Under the pieces are notes generated by a model. The model saw only the letters and a program-made list of their open reading frames with translations, did no database searches and had not been told where the DNA came from. From a virus, in the IMG/VR virus record IMGVR_UViG_3300028802_000042, positions 1-38,342 of that record: a stretch of 38,342 nt of DNA, one strand, 5' to 3'. The translations under genes and the position numbers were made by a program. Of this stretch, positions 5,064 to 22,719 are shown piece after piece. Every line of letters begins with the position of its first letter. The stretch's first letter is position 1.

Positions 5064-5342
5064 TCAACCTTTCTTCGCGCTGCTGCTCCGACGAAAGGGA
5101 CGCTTGGGCCCGCGCCCTAGCACTAGCCAGTCAAGACTGACGCCAAGGGCGGCCGCGAGCGCCACTACTGATGGCAAGCTCGGCGTCTTCCCGCACTCGA
5201 TACGGTATACTGTGACGGCGTTCAGCCCCACCTCGTAAGCGAGGTTAGCCTGGGTTAGCCGTTTGGAACTTCGTTTGGAGCCTTCCGCCTCGCGGGCTGC
5301 ACGAACGCGGGCTGCGACACGCTCCATTTCCAGGGAATCCAT
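5064..5342 (-). CDS. XRE-family transcriptional regulator (Cro/CI-like)
   Basis: A 92-residue single-domain regulator. The helix-turn-helix spans about residues 29-49 (TQANLAYEVGLNAVTVYRIE), followed by the PSLPSVVALAAALGVSLDWL helix pair typical of the XRE/lambda repressor-like family, and a basic tail. It has no oligomerisation or peptidase domain, so it resembles Cro or a small antirepressor-type regulator. The ATG at 5342 lies directly beside an 18-bp operator (5343-5360), so the gene is probably autoregulated. It is transcribed leftwards, towards the helicase gene, and divergently from the second XRE gene. An upstream extension to 5393 would translate the operators. Confidence 0.85.
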   Translation of the reverse strand: MDSLEMERVAARVRAAREAEGSKRSSKRLTQANLAYEVGLNAVTVYRIECGKTPSLPSVVALAAALGVSLDWLVLGRGPKRPFRRSSSAKKG

Positions 5343-5360
5343 TGCATTCGAGAATATGCA
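5343..5360. promoter_or_regulatory. phage repressor operator, copy 1
   Basis: TGCATTCGAGAATATGCA is an imperfect palindrome (TGCAT and ATGCA arms) that touches the start codon of the 5064-5342 regulator. It matches 15 of 18 bases with 6627-6644, in front of the recombination operon; only the central three bases differ. Two XRE proteins encoded alongside make a repressor site the natural reading. Confidence 0.7.
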
Positions 5361-5380
5361 TCGGCGCAGATTAGTCAACC

Positions 5381-5392
5381 TGCATATGCGCA
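5381..5392. promoter_or_regulatory. second operator-like site
   Basis: TGCATATGCGCA lies 20 bases from the first operator and 18 bases before the ATG of the 5411 regulator. Its exact reverse complement occurs at 6619-6630. The two sites could bind the two XRE regulators separately or form a low/high affinity pair. Confidence 0.6.
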
Positions 5393-5410
5393 AGTACAGT
5401 CTTGCTCACG

Positions 5411-5995
5411 ATGCGATTGCGTAAGAAGTCTCGTGCCGTGACACGGCAAGGAAAACCAGCGCTTGACCCTATTGCGGTCGAACTAGGGAAACGCCTTAAA
5501 GCTGCTCGACGAAAGAAGGGCATTCAGCAAGTTGATTTGGCGAAGCGGGCCGGCGTCTCCCAAATCACCGTCTTTAGAAACGAGAAGGGAGAGGTACACC
5601 CCGAACTCTCCACTCTCCGAAAGTACGCCGGAGTTCTGGGAGTCTCTGTTGAGAGCCTCGTCGGTGCAGAGGGAATGCAGTCGATGCAGGCACTGCAATC
5701 GAAGGAACCTCTTAAGGCAGACTCTCAAGATGTGCCTAGAAATGTAGCTCGATTGCTCGGCACCATCTCCGACATCACCGACGAAGAGTTGACGTTCCTT
5801 TCGCAGTTCTCTCGATTGGAGGAGGGAAGAACCACAGAGGAACTCGAAACGATGCTCCTCTCCATGCGTCTCGCCAAAGCTCCGACTGAGGAGGCAATAG
5901 CAGCCTTCAATGAGCACCTCGAAAGAAGAGCGACGGCAAGCGGAATGAGGAAGGTCGATATCGCCCCAAAGCCCGAACCGAAGAAGAAGCGCTAA
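5411..5995 (+). CDS. XRE-family repressor without peptidase domain
   Basis: A 194-residue regulator. It has a basic N-terminus, an XRE helix-turn-helix at about residues 39-58 (QQVDLAKRAGVSQITVFRNE), then a linker and a helical C-terminal region ending in PKPEPKKKR. Unlike lambda CI or LexA it shows no S24 peptidase domain with a Ser/Lys dyad, so self-cleavage on DNA damage is not expected. This is a good candidate for the main lysogenic repressor. Its codon use is visibly less GC-rich than its neighbours. The start is set at the ATG at 5411; a TTG three codons earlier is possible. No ribosome site is clear, so the message may be leaderless. Confidence 0.85.
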   Translation: MRLRKKSRAVTRQGKPALDPIAVELGKRLKAARRKKGIQQVDLAKRAGVSQITVFRNEKGEVHPELSTLRKYAGVLGVSVESLVGAEGMQSMQALQSKEPLKADSQDVPRNVARLLGTISDITDEELTFLSQFSRLEEGRTTEELETMLLSMRLAKAPTEEAIAAFNEHLERRATASGMRKVDIAPKPEPKKKR

Positions 5996-6652: not shown

Positions 6653-7639
6653 ATGCGCACCGTAACCCAGAGCGAACAGCGGACCTTTCGGCGCTGCCCG
6701 CGAGAACATTTCCTTGCGTATGCGCAACGTTATCGGCCCGTCACGGACGCCGAGACGCTGCGATTCGGAACCCTGTGGCACCGAGCACTCGAAATTTATT
6801 GGCGACACCCGAATAAGGAACTTCGCCTCGAAGTAGCGTTGCAAGGACTTCGAGTAGACGGCGCGAGGTCCGGCTCCGATCCTTTCCAAACCGCCACAGT
6901 TGAAGCGCTCCTACTCGGCTACGACGCTCGATGGAAGGACGAGCATTTCGAAGTCCTCGCTGTAGAGGTGGAGTTTAGCGCTCCTCTCATCAACCCAGAA
7001 ACGGGCCACGCGAGTAAGACATTCATCCTTGGCGGCAAGCTCGACGCCATCGCACGCGCCCAAGACGGGCACGTCTATATCGTCGAGCATAAGACCTCCT
7101 CCGAAGACCTAGGGGCGGCCTCAACCTACTGGCAACGCCTGCGCATCGACTCGCAGGTCAGCACCTATTACGCGGGCGCACGCGCGCTCGGCTTCGACGT
7201 CGCCGGCTGCATCTACGACGTAGTGGCGAAGCCCTCCCTAAGACCGCTGAAGGCAACTCAGAATCCGAAGTACACGAAGGACGGTCGCCTCTACGCGAAC
7301 CAACGAGAGTTCGACGAGACGCCCGACGAGTACGAGGCACGCCTCCTCGCTCACATCACTGAGAACCCGGACCGTTATTACCATCGCGGCACCGTCGTCC
7401 GATTAGAAGCCGAAGAAGTCGAAGCCGCATTCGACAGTTGGCAGACCACTCGCCTCATTAGAGAGGCCGAGCTCGCCCAGCGCTACCCACGCAACGCGGA
7501 CGCGTGCCCGCGTTACGGCCGCATGTGCAGCTTCTTCGATGTGTGCACGGGCGCAGCGTCGCTCGACGACCCGTCGCGTTTTCGACAGCTCGACAACCCT
7601 CACGAGGAGCTGTCCAGTGACACCCAATCCTCCCGCTAA
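6653..7639 (+). CDS. Fe-S PD-(D/E)XK exonuclease (RecB/Cas4-like)
   Basis: A 328-residue nuclease of the RecB/PDDEXK_1 group. It shows the RecB-family His (LWH, H43), the catalytic GGKLDAI (D131) and VEHKTS (E145, K147) motifs, and a tyrosine/glutamine helix after them. One cysteine near the N-terminus (C15 in RRCPREHF) and three near the C-terminus (C285, C292, C298) form the split 4Fe-4S pattern seen in AddB- and Cas4-type nucleases. It probably produces single-stranded ends for the annealing proteins encoded next. It is the first gene of the rightward operon, directly under the compound operator. The start is placed at the ATG at 6653; ATG 6626 would put translation inside the operator. 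Confidence 0.85.
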   Translation: MRTVTQSEQRTFRRCPREHFLAYAQRYRPVTDAETLRFGTLWHRALEIYWRHPNKELRLEVALQGLRVDGARSGSDPFQTATVEALLLGYDARWKDEHFEVLAVEVEFSAPLINPETGHASKTFILGGKLDAIARAQDGHVYIVEHKTSSEDLGAASTYWQRLRIDSQVSTYYAGARALGFDVAGCIYDVVAKPSLRPLKATQNPKYTKDGRLYANQREFDETPDEYEARLLAHITENPDRYYHRGTVVRLEAEEVEAAFDSWQTTRLIREAELAQRYPRNADACPRYGRMCSFFDVCTGAASLDDPSRFRQLDNPHEELSSDTQSSR

Positions 7640-8546
7640 ACCGAAAGGCCGGATGCAGCTCGGGAACGTCGTCAAAGGACGAATCGCGAAGCCGCTGCGC
7701 ATCCTGCTCCACGGCCCCGAGGGCATCGGTAAGAGCACGTTCGCAGCCAACGCACCGGCGCCGATCTTCTTGGCAGGTGAAGACGGCACAGCCGAGCTCG
7801 ACGCCGTGCGCTTCCCAGAGCCGACCACGTGGACCGATGTGCTCGATGCCGTGAACGAGCTCGCCACGGTGCCGCACGACTATCAGACCCTCGTCACCGA
7901 CACGGTAAACTCGATTGAGCCGCTGTGCTGGCAGCACGTCTGCGAGAAGCATGGCTTCAAGACCATCGAGGCCCCAGGCTTCGGCAAGGGGTACCTCGCG
8001 GCGCTCGATGAGTGGCGCGTGCTTCTCGCACGGCTCGAGCACCTGCGCACGACGCGCGGGATGACGCTCATCTTCCTGGTGCACACGGTCGTGCGCAATT
8101 TCAAAAACCCCGAAGGCGAGGACTTCGGGCGCTACGTGCCGAAGATCAACCACAACGCGGCCTCGCTCCTGTGCGAATGGAGCGACATCGTTCTGCACGC
8201 TAAGCACGAGCAGTTCACCCACGAGGTCAACGGCCGAGCGCGCGGCATCTCGACAGGCGAGCGCGTGCTCTGCACGCAGCGCACGGCCGCCTACGACGCG
8301 AAGAACCGGCACGACCTGCCGGCCGAGCTCCCGCTCGATTGGCAGAGCTTCGCAGCGGCGCTCGCGCAGCGCCCAGCTGCCATCCAAGGCGAGCTCGACG
8401 CCGAGCTCGCTCGAGCCACGGACGACGTAGGGGCGCGCGTGCGCAAGGCCCTCGAGGCCGCCGGCGACGACTTCACGAAGCGTAAGCAGATCCTGATTCA
8501 CCTCGCGGCACTCAACAGCAGTCAGGCAAAGGAGACACCCAAGTGA
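7617..8546 (+). CDS. Sak4-like RecA-fold recombination ATPase (AAA_24)
   Basis: A 309-residue ATPase with Walker A GPEGIGKST (residues 33-41) and a Walker B strand ending in D95 (TLVTDT). The length and the run of motifs fit the AAA_24 group, to which the phage Sak4 single-strand annealing/RecA-like proteins belong. The GTG start at 7617 overlaps the nuclease gene by 23 bases and is preceded by GAGGAG at 7604-7609, which decides the start over the longer open frame. With the nuclease upstream and the SSB immediately downstream it forms a complete phage recombination module: resect, coat, anneal. The C-terminal 70 residues are helical and charged. Confidence 0.85.
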   Translation: MTPNPPAKPKGRMQLGNVVKGRIAKPLRILLHGPEGIGKSTFAANAPAPIFLAGEDGTAELDAVRFPEPTTWTDVLDAVNELATVPHDYQTLVTDTVNSIEPLCWQHVCEKHGFKTIEAPGFGKGYLAALDEWRVLLARLEHLRTTRGMTLIFLVHTVVRNFKNPEGEDFGRYVPKINHNAASLLCEWSDIVLHAKHEQFTHEVNGRARGISTGERVLCTQRTAAYDAKNRHDLPAELPLDWQSFAAALAQRPAAIQGELDAELARATDDVGARVRKALEAAGDDFTKRKQILIHLAALNSSQAKETPK

Positions 8547-9097
8547 TTCAACCCGGCACCTATCATGCTCGCGCAAAGAGCGCGGGGTACGGCATCACGA
8601 ACACCGGCACCGAACAAGTTGGCGTGAGCTTCGTTATCACGTCGAGCCCGAACGGCCAGTACGACGGAGCCGAGCTCGTTTGGTACGGCTTCTTCACGCT
8701 GAAGACCGAAGACCGAACGCTCGAAGCGCTCGTCACCTGCGGCTGCACGAACCTCGCGACACTCGAAGGCATCTCGAAGAACGAAGTAGCGATCGTCGTG
8801 GACCATGAGCCGCACTACCAGACCGGCGAGCTGCAACCTCGTATCCAGTGGATCAACAAGCTCGGCGGCATCGCCATGAAGACCCGCATGTCGGAGGGGG
8901 AAGCGAAGGCCTTCGCATCGAAGCTGCAAGGCAAGTTCCTCGCGCTGAGTCAGAAGGTCAATGGCGGAGGGAGCTCGCCGAACACGCGGCCTGTGTCGAA
9001 GGGATCTCCACACGACCCGCCGCGGAGCACGCCTCGAGCAGCAGTGCCTCCGCCGATCGATGCTCCGCCGCCGGGAGATGACGACATCCCTTTCTGA
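8543..9097 (+). CDS. single-stranded DNA-binding protein with acidic tip
   Basis: A 184-residue protein with a beta-rich N-terminal domain of about 140 residues compatible with an OB fold. A Gly/Pro/Ser-rich linker follows, and the C-terminus ends in DDDIPF, which is the protein-interaction tip of bacterial SSBs. The overall sequence is not close to the usual SSB family, so it belongs to a divergent phage SSB type. The GTG start overlaps the ATPase stop (GTGA), so the two are made together. It should coat ssDNA and recruit the annealing ATPase or host repair enzymes through the tip. Confidence 0.85.
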   Translation: MIQPGTYHARAKSAGYGITNTGTEQVGVSFVITSSPNGQYDGAELVWYGFFTLKTEDRTLEALVTCGCTNLATLEGISKNEVAIVVDHEPHYQTGELQPRIQWINKLGGIAMKTRMSEGEAKAFASKLQGKFLALSQKVNGGGSSPNTRPVSKGSPHDPPRSTPRAAVPPPIDAPPPGDDDIPF

Positions 9098-9159: not shown

Positions 9160-9816
9160 ATGCAGATTGGGGACCGCACGTTCCCGAGCCAGCAAGCCGT
9201 GAAAGAGCACTGCAAGGGTATCCTCAGCTCGTATGTCCCGGGCTCCACGGTAAGCAACAACGAGCACATCGAGTTTCTAGCGGCGATGCTCGACCGGCAT
9301 CCGGACCGCGATCTGAAAGTGGGAGCGGGAATACGCTCCTTCGAAGTCGAGCGCACACAGTACGGAAACCACTGCTTCTGGCTCACTCGAGCTGATGGCA
9401 GTCGCACGGACTGGAGCGCCTGGTCGTGTCTGCGTCCGATGTCGCCAAAGGAACTCTCGACGAGTGCGTTCCGCAATGCCATCCATCAACAGGTCGCAGC
9501 GTTCAAGGCGCTCCAGTCGTTTCCGATGGCCTGCCCATTCACCGGCGAGCGTCTGACTGCAGACACCTGCGACGTCGACCATGAAGTGCCATTCGCTGCG
9601 TTGCTCGAGAGCTTTGTGACCAGAGAGGGACTCGAGCTCGAGCGCATTGAAACACGAGCACATCAAGACGGGGACACCTTCCGCAACCTTGCGAACGAAG
9701 GTCTCTGCGAACGCTGGCAGCTCTTCCACCGCGTCAACGCGCGGCTGCGCATCGTCTCTCGAAAAGCAAACCGCTCGATTCTCCGCCGGCAAGGCGCGTT
9801 GAAAGGTCACCCATGA
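9160..9816 (+). CDS. DCL-family (DUF3223) protein with HNH-like region
   Basis: A 218-residue protein in two parts. Residues 1-95 match the DCL/DUF3223 pattern (opening IGDRTFPSQQAVKEHCK, then FEVERTQYGNHCFWLTRADG). Residues 118-205 hold a CPFTGERL...CDVDHEVPF block (C125, C137, D140, H141) and a W..FH..NARLRIVS.KAN helix, which is the shape of a degenerate HNH endonuclease. DCL-family proteins have been linked to rRNA maturation in plants, and phage members are of unknown role. A nuclease or nucleic-acid-binding function is plausible. A ribosome site (AGAGGAAA) precedes the ATG, and the stop overlaps the next start. Confidence 0.75.
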   Translation: MQIGDRTFPSQQAVKEHCKGILSSYVPGSTVSNNEHIEFLAAMLDRHPDRDLKVGAGIRSFEVERTQYGNHCFWLTRADGSRTDWSAWSCLRPMSPKELSTSAFRNAIHQQVAAFKALQSFPMACPFTGERLTADTCDVDHEVPFAALLESFVTREGLELERIETRAHQDGDTFRNLANEGLCERWQLFHRVNARLRIVSRKANRSILRRQGALKGHP

Positions 9817-10205
9817 AACCCCAAAAAGAACCCCCCGAAGCCTTCAGTGAAGTCGTCCGCCGAGTAGCGGACGGCGAATGCGAGGTCAACTGTTCCCGCG
9901 AGCTGCAGCGTCTGCTGCTCGCGCTTAGAGGTCAGTCGACCGCACAGATGAAAGAGGTGAGTGGCAGCCTAACACTCAAGCTCTCGGTCGCATGCGACCC
10001 GCACGGCCTCTTGTCCATCGCGTACACGCTCGAGCGCAAGGACCCGAAGAAGCAAACCAGCCGCTCGGTCTGCTGGGTCACGAAGGGCGGCAACCTGTCG
10101 TTCGACATGCCGCGCCAAGAGAAGCTGCCGCTCATCGAGCCGCCGCGCCCGAGCTTCCGTGAAGTCGTCTACGACGCGACCGATGACGAAGCCGATTCGA
10201 ACTAA
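9813..10205 (+). CDS. hypothetical phage protein, 130 aa
   Basis: A 130-residue soluble protein that overlaps the DCL-like gene by four bases (ATGA). It has a helical N-terminal half (AFSEVVRRVADGECEVNCSRELQRLLLALR), a beta hairpin region (GSLTLKLSVACDPHGLLSIAYTLE) and an acidic C-terminus (DATDDEADSN). No catalytic motif is visible and I do not know the family. Its place between the DCL-like and DUF2303 genes suggests a helper in recombination or DNA metabolism. Confidence 0.65.
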   Translation: MKPQKEPPEAFSEVVRRVADGECEVNCSRELQRLLLALRGQSTAQMKEVSGSLTLKLSVACDPHGLLSIAYTLERKDPKKQTSRSVCWVTKGGNLSFDMPRQEKLPLIEPPRPSFREVVYDATDDEADSN

Positions 10206-11135: not shown

Positions 11136-11353
11136 CCGACCCCATCAACCACCCCCCGCACTACACCTATGCAGGAGACACGTACGAGTGCATCAAGGTG
11201 ATCGAGGCGTGGGCCCTCGGGTTCTGCCTCGGCAACGCCGTCAAATACATCTGCCGTGCCGGACGCAAGGGCGCCGAGAGTCGCGTGGCCGATCTGCGGA
11301 AAGCGCGTTGGTATATCGACCGTGAGATTGCGAACGCGGAGCAAAAACCATGA
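11132..11353 (+). CDS. DUF3310 small protein
   Basis: A 73-residue protein. The opening NHPPHY, then ECIKVIEAW, GFCLGNAVKYICRAGRKG and the final KARWYIDREI follow the DUF3310 pattern closely. This is the domain present in T7 gp1.7, a nucleotide-metabolism protein, and in many phages as a stand-alone protein. It starts in an ATGA overlap with the DUF2303 gene and ends the first block of the rightward operon, just before the G-rich tract. Confidence 0.85.
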   Translation: MTDPINHPPHYTYAGDTYECIKVIEAWALGFCLGNAVKYICRAGRKGAESRVADLRKARWYIDREIANAEQKP

Positions 11354-11355
11354 CG

Positions 11356-12085
11356 GCAGGCAAGGCAGGTTTAGGCACGGAATGGCAGGGCCGGGAGAGG
11401 TTTGGCGATGCAGGCCAGACGGGTTTAGGAATCATTAGGCGCGGTGAGTCGAGTCGAGGTTTGGCAAGGCAGGCGAGGCGTGGTTGGGCCTGACACGGCG
11501 AGGCCTGGCGCGGCGTGTTTAGGCAGGGCAATGCAGGCCGGCCAAGGCGCGGTGGGGCATGGAGCGGCTGGGCAACGCAGGTTTGTCGAGGCGCGGTGCG
11601 ATCAGGAGAGGCGTGGCGGGTACAGGCCTGGAGTCACATGGCCAGGCAGGCAAGGCGTGATCAACCACGGCAAGGTGTGGCGAGGCAACGCAGGCAAGTT
11701 GTGTCCCGGCATGACACGGCGAGGTGTGGCGAGGCAGGCAAGGAGTGGCCTGGCAAGGTCGGGTGAGGCGAGGCAACGCAGGCGTGGACTGGTGAGGTGC
11801 AGCCAGTAGCGGCGTGAAAGGGCATGGTTAGGCGCGGCTCCGCGTGGCGTGTTGAGACCGGGCAACGCAGGCAACGCAGGCAACGCAGGCATCGTGAGGT
11901 CGGGTGTGTCTAGGCGCGGTCAGGTCGAGCGCGTCAAGGAATGTCGAGGCAGGCGTGATTGGGCACGGCGAGGCTAGGACGGGCGATGCCCGATAAGGCG
12001 GGGTTAGGCAGGGCAACGCAGGCATGGCGAGTCCCGGCGTGACAAGGCGGAAAAAGGCAAGGCAAGGCGTGGCAGGCACGGAGCA
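11356..12085 (+). repeat. G-rich degenerate pentameric tract 1
   Basis: About 730 noncoding bases consist almost entirely of irregular GGCNN/GGTNN units, with GG repeating every five bases (sometimes four) on the plus strand, for example GGCGA GGTGT GGCGA in 11728-11742. Direct copies occur, such as the 17-mer at 11679-11695 repeated at 11767-11783. Open frames cross it on both strands but contain only repeat-derived residues. It begins right after the DUF3310 stop and ends before an A-rich leader (12086-12120) with an AGAGGG ribosome site for the next gene. Confidence 0.85.
11861..11890 (+). repeat. 9-bp perfect tandem repeat, 3.3 copies
   Basis: GGCAACGCA is repeated three times and followed by GGC, the only exact tandem inside the larger degenerate tract. 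It shows the tract can grow or shrink by slippage. Confidence 0.85.
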
Positions 12086-12123: not shown

Positions 12124-12804
12124 ATGGCACGTAAGACAGCAGCAACGGCAACAGCAACTCTCGGGCTTCACGCAGTCACAGACCAGACGGTCACCATCTC
12201 AGCGCCACGCATCTCGACAGCGACGTTCGCTTGTCGGGGTACCGCTCCACTCATGGTGCACAGCTTCTCGCAGAAGTCGACCGAGGCCATGCGAGCTGCG
12301 CAGGAGGCAGGCAGTCAGTCGAAGAGTAAGAAAACCCGAGCACCGAAAGACTTCACGGAGGCATTCCAATCCGCGCGCTACCGCTCGGCGGAAGGAGATT
12401 GGGACGGCGTGAATGCAGCGGCGTTCCGCTGCGCGATGATCTCAGCGTGCCGTTTGGTCGGCTTCAAGATGACGCTGGCCAAGCTGTCGTTCTGGGTCCT
12501 TGCCGACGGCATCGACAGGAGCAAAACCGTTCCGCTGGTTCGCATCTTCGGCGCCGAGCCGGCGATGGACGTGCGCCCTGCACGCAACTCGAACGGCGGA
12601 ATGGACCTACGCGCTCGTCCCATCTGGCACGAGTGGAGCTGCAACGTCCGTGTGCAGTGGGACCTCGACCAGTTCTCCCTCGCTGACATCACCAACTTGC
12701 TGATGCGCGTCGGCATGCAGGTCGGTATCGGCGAGGGTCGACCGGACAGTCGCATGTCCGCTGGTCTCGGATACGGCACGTTCAGCGTCGTCGAGGGGTC
12801 GTGA
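12124..12804 (+). CDS. conserved phage protein, possible RAMP/Cas7-like fold
   Basis: A 226-residue protein between the two G-rich tracts. I know no function for it. Several features suggest a RAMP (Cas7/Csm3-type, ferredoxin-like) fold: a first strand reading ATFACRGTAPLMVHSF, a WDGVNAAAFRCAMISACR helix like the one after the specificity loop in RAMP proteins, and a C-terminal strand-helix followed by a glycine-rich loop (VGIGEGRP...GLGYGTFSV) in the place of the RAMP G-loop. The N-terminus is Ala/Thr-rich and probably disordered, and there is a Lys-rich loop near residues 61-73. It has an A-rich leader and a clear ribosome site. Fold assignment is inference; the gene itself is secure. Confidence 0.75.
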   Translation: MARKTAATATATLGLHAVTDQTVTISAPRISTATFACRGTAPLMVHSFSQKSTEAMRAAQEAGSQSKSKKTRAPKDFTEAFQSARYRSAEGDWDGVNAAAFRCAMISACRLVGFKMTLAKLSFWVLADGIDRSKTVPLVRIFGAEPAMDVRPARNSNGGMDLRARPIWHEWSCNVRVQWDLDQFSLADITNLLMRVGMQVGIGEGRPDSRMSAGLGYGTFSVVEGS

Positions 12805-13268
12805 GCCGACTTCGAATCAGCGAAGCCGCTGTGAGCGAGCTCAACGCGCTGAGTGAGTCCAACGGCGGACTGCTCAAGCCCGAGCACGTACTCGAACGAG
12901 CACGCTCGAAGCGGAGCGCTCTCCACACGTTGTTCACGTGGGACAACGCACGGGCCGGTGAGCTCCGCCGACTCGACGAGGCCCGAGCGATCATCATCTC
13001 CGTGAAGGTCCGGATCGAAGCACGTCCGCACGAGCCACCGATGAAGGTCCGGGCGTACGTCTCGCTTGCGGAAGATCGTGTAACGGGCGGCGGCTACCGC
13101 CCGATCACGGTCGTTCTGCGAGACTCATCTCAGCGAGCACAGTTGCTGCGGACTGCCATACAGGAGTTCGCGGCGCTGCGGAAAAAGTACGAGGCGCTCG
13201 CCGAACTAACGAAGCTGTACGACGAGCTTGATGCTGTCCTCTTTGCTCAGTCGCAGCAGACGGGGTGA
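12801..13268 (+). CDS. conserved phage protein paired with the RAMP-like gene
   Basis: A 155-residue protein whose GTG start overlaps the previous stop (GTGA), so the two are coupled. The N-terminal region (SEAAVSELNALSESNGGLLKPEHVLERAR) and the C-terminal region (ALRKKYEALAELTKLYDELDAVL) are helical, the latter a likely coiled coil. The middle (VRAYVSLAEDRVTGGGYRPITVVL) is beta. No enzyme motif is seen. The tight pairing with the RAMP-like gene and the shared flanking tracts suggest that the two act together, but their process is unknown. Confidence 0.75.
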   Translation: MSRLRISEAAVSELNALSESNGGLLKPEHVLERARSKRSALHTLFTWDNARAGELRRLDEARAIIISVKVRIEARPHEPPMKVRAYVSLAEDRVTGGGYRPITVVLRDSSQRAQLLRTAIQEFAALRKKYEALAELTKLYDELDAVLFAQSQQTG

Positions 13269-13500
13269 TAGCGCAGGCATGGCAAGCCGGGGCGCGTCGA
13301 GGTTCGGAACGGTACGGCGAGGCACGGCAGGCATGGAGGGTCAGAGCATGGACTGTCCAGGCGTGTTCTGGTGAGGCACGGAGCGGCAGGTCAGTCGGTG
13401 CATGGAGCGGCGAGGTTAGGTGTGGTCCGGCAGGCGACGTTAGGCGGGATTAGGCAAGGCGCGGTTGGGTAAGGCAGGCGAGGCGAGACGGGGCCGATTG
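13269..13500 (+). repeat. G-rich degenerate pentameric tract 2
   Basis: A second noncoding tract of the same kind follows the stop of the paired gene, for example GGTTC GGAAC GGTAC GGCGA from 13302, again on the plus strand with five-base spacing. Up to 13601 the sequence becomes ordinary and leads into the ribosome site (TAGGAG) of the next gene. It is not an exact copy of tract 1. Confidence 0.8.
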
Positions 13501-13601
13501 TGGAGTGTCATGTCGTGCCCAGGCGGAGTGTGGCAGAGGTCCGTTGGTCGATCGGACGTGAAACTCATCGACCGTTTTTCTACTGGCAATAGGAGACGCG
13601 A

Positions 13602-20517: not shown

Positions 20518-22719
20518 TCACCAAAACAGGTCAACGGCGAGGCCAGCGGCGGCAAGGCTCGTCGTGCCGTAGATGTGCGATGAGCCCGAGGTGCGCCCGA
20601 GCGTGGTTGCGAAGTGCGACCCGACGGCGGGCGTCACACCATGCGCAGCCACACCGGGCACGACGATGCCCGCTGCGCCCGAGGCATACCCGCGCAAGCC
20701 CGCGGGCGTCGTAGTCGAGTCGTACCCGATCGCAATGCCGACGTCGGCACCGGTCGGCACGAGCGCAGCGTGCGCAGCCATGCCGGCGTCTTCGACCGGT
20801 AAGCCCGTGACCCAGTCGACGCGGGCGTTGGTGTCGGCGTTCCACTGTTGCCACGACCCGGCGCTCGGTATCGCCCAGTCTGCCGTGTTGCTGACCCACA
20901 CGAACTGCGACCGCACGCGGTTGCTGACGTTCCAAATGCAGCACGACGCCTTAGCGCCACCTGTGCCACGACGCAGCATGGTCATTTGCGTTGCACTCGA
21001 CGGCAAGATCGATCCGCAGTAGCGCCGCGTGACGTCGCCGTTTTTGTGCCAAACACCATCTTGCGTGCGATTCAAGGTCGTGGCCCGCGTGGTCGCATCC
21101 GTCCACGGGATGAGCTCGAGCGCGACCGCTGACGCGCTCGTCGCGTACGCGTAGATGTCTGCGGGCACGCCCGCTGTTAGGCCCGTCAGCGCGACGGATG
21201 GCGGCGTGCCGATCGAGTACGAATACCAACTATCGCGCGCGTAAAAACCGCTTGAGGCCAGCACATAGAGCGAGATGAATTTGTCGATATGCGACGTCAG
21301 CCATACAGTCGAAAACACACCGTCAGGCGTCATGGGGTCGCTGCTGAAACCAGCCAAGCGCGCGCCGAAACGCTGCGGGAAGTTCAGTCGCGGATCTGAG
21401 CCTTCGCAGAACTGACCCACGTTCACGCCGAATGCCGGCAGCGCGTGGACATGGTCGGATCGCGTGAGCGACGCGTTGGTGCCCTGTACATTCGAGCCGC
21501 CCACTACGAGCGTGCTCGGGATGTTGGTACTGACGCTGTGCTTGTGGTCGCCTCTCGCGGCGACCGTCGCCGAGCCTAGCGCCGCAGTGCCGCTGTCCAC
21601 TGCGACCGGCGTTGTGGCAGTAAGCGCCGCTGCATTGGACGCCATGCCGTCGAGCCGCACCTTGTCGGTCGCGGCCATAAACCCATCCACCGTGGTGCTC
21701 ACGAGCGCGGGCAGCTGATGCACGTGGGTCGCGCGCGCGAGCCCGGTGCCGGTGCCTACCGTGTTGGTGCCACCCACGCCCAGTGTGACCGGCGTACTGA
21801 CTAACACCGCGTGCGTGTGATCCTCACGCGCGGCTGCCGTGCCGACGCCGACCACCGCCGTGCTCGCGCCTACGCTAGCGGGTACGACTGCGGTCAAAGC
21901 AGCTGCGCTCGCGGCGATGCCGTCGAGCTTGACCTTGTCGGTCGCCGCAAAAAAACCGTCAACCGTCGTCGTCGCAAGCGCCGGCAGCTGGTGTATGTGA
22001 GACGCGCGCGCGACCGATAGCGATGATCCTGACGAGTTAGTGCCGCCGATCCCGAGCGTTGACGGTGTCGCAGTGGCGATGCCGTGCATGTGATCGCGAC
22101 GAGCGGCATCGGTCGCGACGCCGACGACGGCAGCCGCGACCGTGATTTGCGTCGGCGCAGTGTTGGTCACCGCGGCGGCGTTGGCTTGGATGCCGTCGAG
22201 CTTGCTTTGGCTCGCCGCCGAGATAAACCCGGCATCGGTCACCGTAGCGACCGCGTGCATCGTCTCATCAGACTGCACACCATGCGCGTGCGCATGGTCT
22301 TCGCGCGCGGCGATGGTCGACACACCGATCGCCGCCGTCGCGCCAACGTCTAGCGGCGGCGTTGTCGCAAGCGGCGGTTGCGGGCCAGTCGCACCGACCG
22401 GCCCTTGGATGCCCTGCTCACCTTGCTCACCTTGCGGGCCACTTGCACCCGTCGCACCGACCGGCCCTTGGATGCCTTGCTCGCCTTGCGGGCCCTGCTC
22501 ACCTTGCTCGCCTTGCGGGCCGGTTGCACCGGTCGCACCGACCGGCCCTTGGATGCCTTGGATACCTTGCTCGCCTTGCGGCCCGACTGGCCCTTGCTCG
22601 CCTTGGATGCCTTGCTCGCCTTGCTCGCCTTGCGGGCCAGGACTACCCGCGGGCTGCGCGACCACCGTAAAAGTCGGCGTCTCGGGTACGACTACGTTTA
22701 TGATACAACAGTCAGACAT
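20518..22719 (-). CDS. collagen-like tail fibre protein
   Basis: A 733-residue fibre. Residues 24-115 are collagen-like Gly-X-Y triplets ([22 protein letters not shown]). From 125 to about 440 there are repeated units of about 80 residues, each with an AAREDH/RASHIH-type His motif (DHAHA, DHMHG, SHIHQ, DHTHA, THVHQ, DHKHS, DHVHA) and a [15 protein letters not shown] segment. Such repeats form trimeric shafts, and their His-x-His motifs often coordinate metal on the fibre axis. The C-terminal 290 residues form the tip that should bind the host. The start at ATG 22719 has AAAGGA seven bases before it. It is the last tail gene of the late operon. Confidence 0.85.

Follow-up and report, generated by a model that had tools for sequence, protein, structure and literature searches.

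A RAMP-type gene between pentamer tracts in an IMG/VR phage: a very probable VIPR locus with predicted targets in other mobile elements

What would a phage do with a RAMP/Cas7-like protein when neither cas genes nor a CRISPR array lie nearby? The question arises from a gene encoding a 226-residue protein in the IMG/VR virus record IMGVR_UViG_3300028802_000042, a single record of 38,342 bases that was analyzed over its whole length (hereafter, the window). A first-pass annotation made from the letters alone had recognized the outline of this protein, linked it to flanking tracts of five-base periodicity and proposed a new phage system. The novelty claim fails because such systems, named VIPR, are already public as a preprint (PMC13142463, April-June 2026), beyond which our literature search found no further paper on VIPR; the main point of the proposal held up, and the locus is very probably a phage-borne VIPR system of RNA-guided interference. 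According to the main text of that preprint, VIPR systems combine a phage RAMP protein, Vipr, with a vap partner gene and with vrRNAs built of GGY/NN pentamers, the NN pairs of which read DNA with one base skipped, usually the codon wobble base. Vipr has a RAMP fold with an RRM core, a glycine-rich loop and a thumb. Each vrRNA consists of 9-16 YNNGG repeats, with GGY fixed and NN variable, followed by an invariable structured 3′ tail, and further array types, including a “staggered” one, are described there as well.

The 226-residue protein and its relatives

The open reading frame of 226 codons was borne out, and its product belongs to family phrog_4652, which has no assigned function; no Pfam family matched the protein. 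A scan of IMG/VR for relatives returned 260 (80 loci were kept), so that at least 260 viral relatives exist, and the closest proteins among named phages are those of Cyanophage Cy-LDV1 (55% identity) and of Gordonia phages. A profile of 36 window-type proteins was aligned with Vipr of Escherichia phage SUSP1 and four of its relatives (hhalign probability 95.9, E = 5.9e-9). The same profile, searched against the PDB, matched the solved SUSP1 Vipr chain 36pp_D (E = 3.8e-5) and no Cas7 chain, and gp42 of Gordonia phage Pipp turned up in searches with the window protein as well as with SUSP1 Vipr. Judged by these profile alignments, the 226-residue protein is Vipr, a homologue of SUSP1 Vipr, and by analogy with its family it would bind nucleic acid. 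A near copy of the SUSP1 Vipr gene (98.5% identity) also occurs at positions 91679-92263 of GU169904.1, a record entitled “Staphylococcus phage SA1” that may be mislabelled or chimeric.

The AlphaFold model of the protein (pLDDT 82.5, pTM 0.76) supports a RAMP/Cas7-like fold, as the early annotation had supposed: in the fold search, every one of the best 30 PDB matches was a chain from a CRISPR Csm, Cmr or type VII effector complex, with TM-scores of 0.34-0.47, which are modest and in line with distant RAMPs. Few parts of the family are as well conserved as the two features singled out at that stage: the helix AAFRCAMISACR, which spans residues 98-109, and the glycine-rich segment at the C terminus. 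Across the 36 homologues, A98, R102, C109, R110, G113, K115, M116, T117 and K120 are invariant, as are G201, G205, R206, G214, G216 and G218 toward the C terminus.

Pentamer tracts and the partner gene

The five-base tracts on either side of the gene are real, and a pentamer parser recovers both on the plus strand, the period of five being strand specific. Lag-5 autocorrelation reaches 0.44 in both tracts compared with 0.30-0.31 in dinucleotide shuffles, and the upstream tract has 63 GG pairs at a spacing of five bases (21.8 expected), the downstream tract 20 (8.3 expected). The tracts are made of blocks of NNGGY pentamers, mostly 8-13 units per block (mostly 8-12 across the family), and between blocks a 4-base AGGY (AGGC or AGGT in the window) shifts the phase by one base; an A-rich unit (AAGGC in the family, AACGC in the window) usually comes just before it. 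Over the 84 distinct tracts and 6081 pentamers from which array statistics were drawn, the two N positions carry 1.93 and 1.96 bits of entropy and the two G positions 0.71 and 0.75 bits, while the last base is C in 63% and T in 25% of pentamers. With regard to their anatomy, the flanking tracts look like vrRNA-type guide arrays of Vipr, and contiguous arrays with an AGGY slip may be the “staggered” type mentioned in the main text of PMC13142463.

The suspected link between protein and tracts also stands. Of 92 related loci, 88 carry a tract on the strand of vipr, compared with 2 of 118 unrelated viral control loci; of 662 guide blocks, 660 are on that strand. Among the four loci that lack a tract (loci are cited here by L number), L041 and L081 are on contigs that end about 500 bases or less from the gene. 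The other two carry a variant code in which NNCGC takes the place of NNGGY, on the vipr strand upstream of a close Vipr homologue (L004, 1951-2250; L005, 5101-5400). Conversely, L129 has a strong NNGGY tract at 5115-5570 with no window-type vipr detectable in 11 kb; it is perhaps another VIPR type or an orphan array.

The gene that follows vipr, overlapping its end by 4 bases, belongs to phrog_15946, the function of which is unlisted. A homologue of this vap-like partner was found in 89 of the 92 clade loci and was not detected in L057, L081 and L093. Its model is confident (pLDDT 93.7) yet gave no confident match to any solved fold; weak matches to winged-helix proteins were obtained and are by themselves no evidence. 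L093 has three arrays (7625-7934, 8692-8998 and 9791-10046) round its one vipr.

The one-base-skip code and predicted targets

If NN pairs stand for the first two codon positions and the skip for the wobble base, the guide dinucleotides should resemble those codon positions on either strand, whatever the target. Indeed, in 59 of 66 loci codon positions 1-2 are the best fit for the NN dinucleotides, and reversing the latter costs more than 400 log-likelihood units. The strand coherence of guides exceeds that of within-locus shuffles (z = 5.0), although the 2-3 phase does so as well (z = 3.5). As a caveat to this test, guide NN G+C content hardly responds to genome G+C (near 0.47 throughout, slope 0.1), whereas codon positions 1-2 of the same genomes follow it (slope 0.8); therefore, other constraints on composition also act. 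In the clade as a whole, a 1-nucleotide skip with the skipped base on the wobble position is what the computed matches display.

Guides of related phages gave a series of matches. For a guide common to L025-L027, 1 of 26 IMG/VR matches to its 8-dinucleotide core extends to all 22 bases, and this match, located at RMKAGKEHKVPLS, runs antisense to a tyrosine integrase gene in L252 and places its skipped bases at wobble positions. Guides that had played no part in finding L252 match the same gene (L054, 23 of 24 bases; L015, 18 of 20). When 370 guides were compared with 22 integrase genes, 22 guides reached 80% with a 1-nucleotide skip, 20 of them in the antisense wobble phase; at the same threshold, the numbers were 1-3 for other skips and 4 for shuffled guides, and flanking DNA of these loci gave 17, scattered over the phases. 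In a wider set of 42 genes the antisense wobble class was again the largest (20 guides versus 1-14 in the other five classes), and at 85% it held 9 guides versus 0-4. These counts are not fully independent since some of the matching guides are related to each other. The integrase guides decode to [IM][KN]AG[KN][DE][HQ][KN]VPL, [FL]V[HQ]G[FL][SR]ST[FL]R[DE][CW] and V[HQ]T[IM]A[KN][KN]V[DE]AAY, which we take to be the catalytic Lys hairpin, the HxxR box and the Tyr box of tyrosine integrases. On these computed matches, guides of the related phages would be directed against tyrosine integrases at their catalytic boxes, on the antisense strand and with the skip in wobble phase.

In the window itself, one guide has a convincing candidate. 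The block starting at position 11583 (guide 11583, Table 1) decodes to [FL][DE]AA[HQ][DE]VG[HQ]LV[IM][HQ], which resembles the zinc-protease motif of ImmA/IrrE proteins. Its sole Pfam match is PF06114 (E = 0.12), and a Pfam search with the concatenated guide peptides joined by X linkers gave nothing beyond this single ImmA-like peptide. Genes of PF06114 were then fetched by family alone. In L357, the gene of a helix-turn-helix plus Peptidase_M78 protein matches the guide at 25 of 26 bases, sense and in wobble phase, at FDAAHELGHLVMH, while other skips give 15-16. Ten homologues, which are not independent of each other (plasmids and one phage), match at 21-24 of 26 bases at the same site with the 1-nucleotide skip only; over all of these genes, other skips give 14-16. 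The chance of such a match is on the order of 0.001 by our own rough calculation, which takes all families as searched and assumes equal base frequencies. Guide 11583 is thus predicted to target the HExxH codons of XRE-ImmA/IrrE regulator genes, and homologues of the L357 gene are located on plasmids, phages and chromosomes. The second candidate is weaker: guide 11696 matches at 13 of 16 bases in wobble phase in L357 and L394, with background values in most other genes, and may hit a C-terminal motif of the XRE-ImmA genes. Other candidates were rejected. Most of the 108 IMG/VR matches to the 8-dinucleotide core of guide 11583 did not keep the phase and fell in unrelated genes; a terminase match of guide 11475 (8 of 12 dinucleotides) had no extension and was not accepted, and three other window guides scanned in IMG/VR gave no target. 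As a separate observation, a gene of about 210 codons regularly precedes the XRE-ImmA gene (L357, 411-2142; plasmid loci L387-L395), and the pair, often found near plasmid DNA methylase or restriction genes, forms a conserved two-gene mobile unit.

Weighing the VIPR reading, locus layout and meaning

How closely does the locus resemble known systems? The system of Escherichia phage SUSP1 (type II, PMC13142463, PDB 36pp) shares a homologous Vipr, two genes fitting vipr and vap between tract regions, a small partner directly after vipr, GGY/NN pentamer tracts on both sides and on the same strand, and wobble-aligned targets read with a 1-nucleotide skip. It differs in that the two Vipr proteins are only about 20% identical in the profile alignment, the window partner has no detectable homology to SUSP1 vap1, and targets of the window clade look like integrase and ImmA/IrrE genes. 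Moreover, SUSP1 has separate vrRNAs with a long structured tail, whereas the window has many blocks in a contiguous array with the 4-base AGGY slip. The Cas7/Csm3/Cmr4 backbone of class 1 CRISPR systems shares the RAMP fold by structure search and, by analogy, RNA guidance; however, the periodicity is five bases here instead of six and no sequence similarity is detectable. The window locus also has no cas genes or CRISPR array, as had been noted from the outset, and no adaptation genes: PADLOC and NCBIfam gave no match for vipr and its neighbor, Rfam gave none in the window, and no CRISPR-like array is present among the window's tandem repeats. A CRISPR remnant was rejected on these grounds.

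By extension from the systems of PMC13142463, as its main text presents them, vrRNA production, assembly of the ribonucleoprotein, DNA binding and repression would proceed as follows. Vipr subunits, by homology, would coat the vrRNA and hold the GGY of each pentamer, leaving the two N bases to pair with DNA, with one target base skipped between pairs. The bound complex would then prevent the transcription of genes that belong to rival mobile elements. Guide 11583 would direct it to the HExxH codons of XRE-ImmA/IrrE regulators and the guides of sister phages to the catalytic boxes of integrases, such that the phage may repress integrases and regulators of its rivals. Lysogeny regulators are among the targets reported for the VIPR of the P. 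fulva clade in the main text of the preprint.

Several observations weigh against this interpretation. Guides compared with about 1 Mb of loci gave no general excess of 1-nucleotide-skip matches, and a convincing target was found for just 1 of the 17 guides in the window and, apart from the weak candidate of guide 11696, none for the rest. The ImmA/IrrE family was picked after the decoded peptide had been seen. Searches for the guide pattern in 272 Bradyrhizobium genomes and 301 genomes of the Azohydromonas family gave no matches. Between blocks there is no structured 3′ tail, unlike in SUSP1, but just the short A-rich unit and AGGY. Finally, window blocks keep GG in 0.62-0.88 of their units, which is less strict than in many relatives.

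The VIPR assignment could be right and the named targets wrong, being chance or compositional matches. The biased NN composition, a mild preference of shuffled guides for the sense wobble phase and the chance nature of the 108 core matches lend this some weight, but few integrase matches survive when other skips or shuffled guides are used, catalytic motifs of a single enzyme are decoded from different guides, and guide 11583 matches a single site in 11 genes at 21-25 of 26 bases while other skips stay at background; we therefore regard it as unlikely. Quite improbable, too, is a decaying VIPR locus with intact genes and arrays too mutated to work except for one or two blocks. The GG frequency per block given above, compared with a family figure of about 0.87 for each G position, and the many guides lacking a target would fit such decay; nonetheless, L015 and similar relatives have imperfect units and yet their guides match integrase motifs, and the window guide with the near-perfect target itself has 0.69 GG units. 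Repeats beside phage replication and recombination genes are common as a matter of general knowledge, so the tracts might be a replication origin, recombination or packaging signal bound as DNA by the RAMP protein, but near-random N positions next to a fixed GGY, the placement of arrays on the vipr strand and dinucleotides that carry codon phase and match genes of other elements make this very unlikely. Least credible of all is a stray CRISPR Cas7 subunit acquired from a host, for although the fold search does return Cas7-type subunits, the profile finds SUSP1 Vipr in place of any Cas7 chain, PADLOC and NCBIfam are empty, and the family occurs widely in phages, accompanied by a partner gene and tracts of its own.

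The VIPR interpretation also agrees with the layout of the locus, in which array 1, vipr, the vap-like partner and array 2 follow each other on one strand (Table 1), giving the minimal VIPR plan of vipr and vap with long non-coding flanks. Because the window encodes an integrase, a repressor-like regulator, an exonuclease and a Sak4-like annealing protein, along with a tail sheath, a tape measure protein and collagen-like tail fibres, the phage is contractile tailed and probably temperate. Elsewhere in the window, a DUF3223-domain protein (phrog_28887, 9160-9816) whose role is unassigned adjoins the recombination genes, and tandem repeats of 9, 27 and 81 bases lie within a collagen-like tail fibre gene (22411-22635, minus strand).

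Table 1. Features of the putative VIPR locus in the window
Feature	Coordinates	Strand	Basis or remark
vrRNA-type guide array 1, upstream of vipr	11353..12082	+	Pentamer parser; lag-5 autocorrelation z 9.0
Guide block (guide 11583), 13 dinucleotides TT.GA.GC.GC.CA.GA.GT.GG.CA.CT.GT.AT.CA	11583..11647	+	Predicted target: HExxH codons of XRE-ImmA/IrrE genes
Guide block (guide 11696), 8 dinucleotides	11696..11735	+	Weak candidate: C-terminal motif of XRE-ImmA genes
vipr, RAMP/Cas7-like, 226 residues, phrog_4652	12124..12804	+	hhalign, PDB profile match, model and fold search
vap-like partner, 155 residues, phrog_15946	12801..13268	+	Homologue in 89/92 clade loci; confident model without fold match
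vrRNA-type guide array 2, five blocks, downstream of partner gene	13274..13534	+	Parser score 83.6; lag-5 z 5.1

CRISPR RAMPs are proposed to descend from VIPR, and only a few VIPR systems have so far been put to the test. The present assignment ties to VIPR the widespread phage family phrog_4652 and its partner phrog_15946, both listed as of unknown function, and it provides an independent computational check of the 1-nucleotide-skip code in a divergent clade, with concrete targets named. The focus of guides on integrase motifs and on an ImmA/IrrE motif is apparently unreported, at least in the main text of PMC13142463. We lean slightly toward the view that selection on the guides of this clade operates at the protein-motif level, with the AGGY slip marking guide ends. 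With the skip falling on the wobble base and the guides lying on catalytic codons, one guide would recognize a gene family across genera and bar most synonymous escape. If guides do aim at catalytic motifs, a single guide would cover a whole protein family, in contrast to CRISPR spacers, which act at the level of strains.
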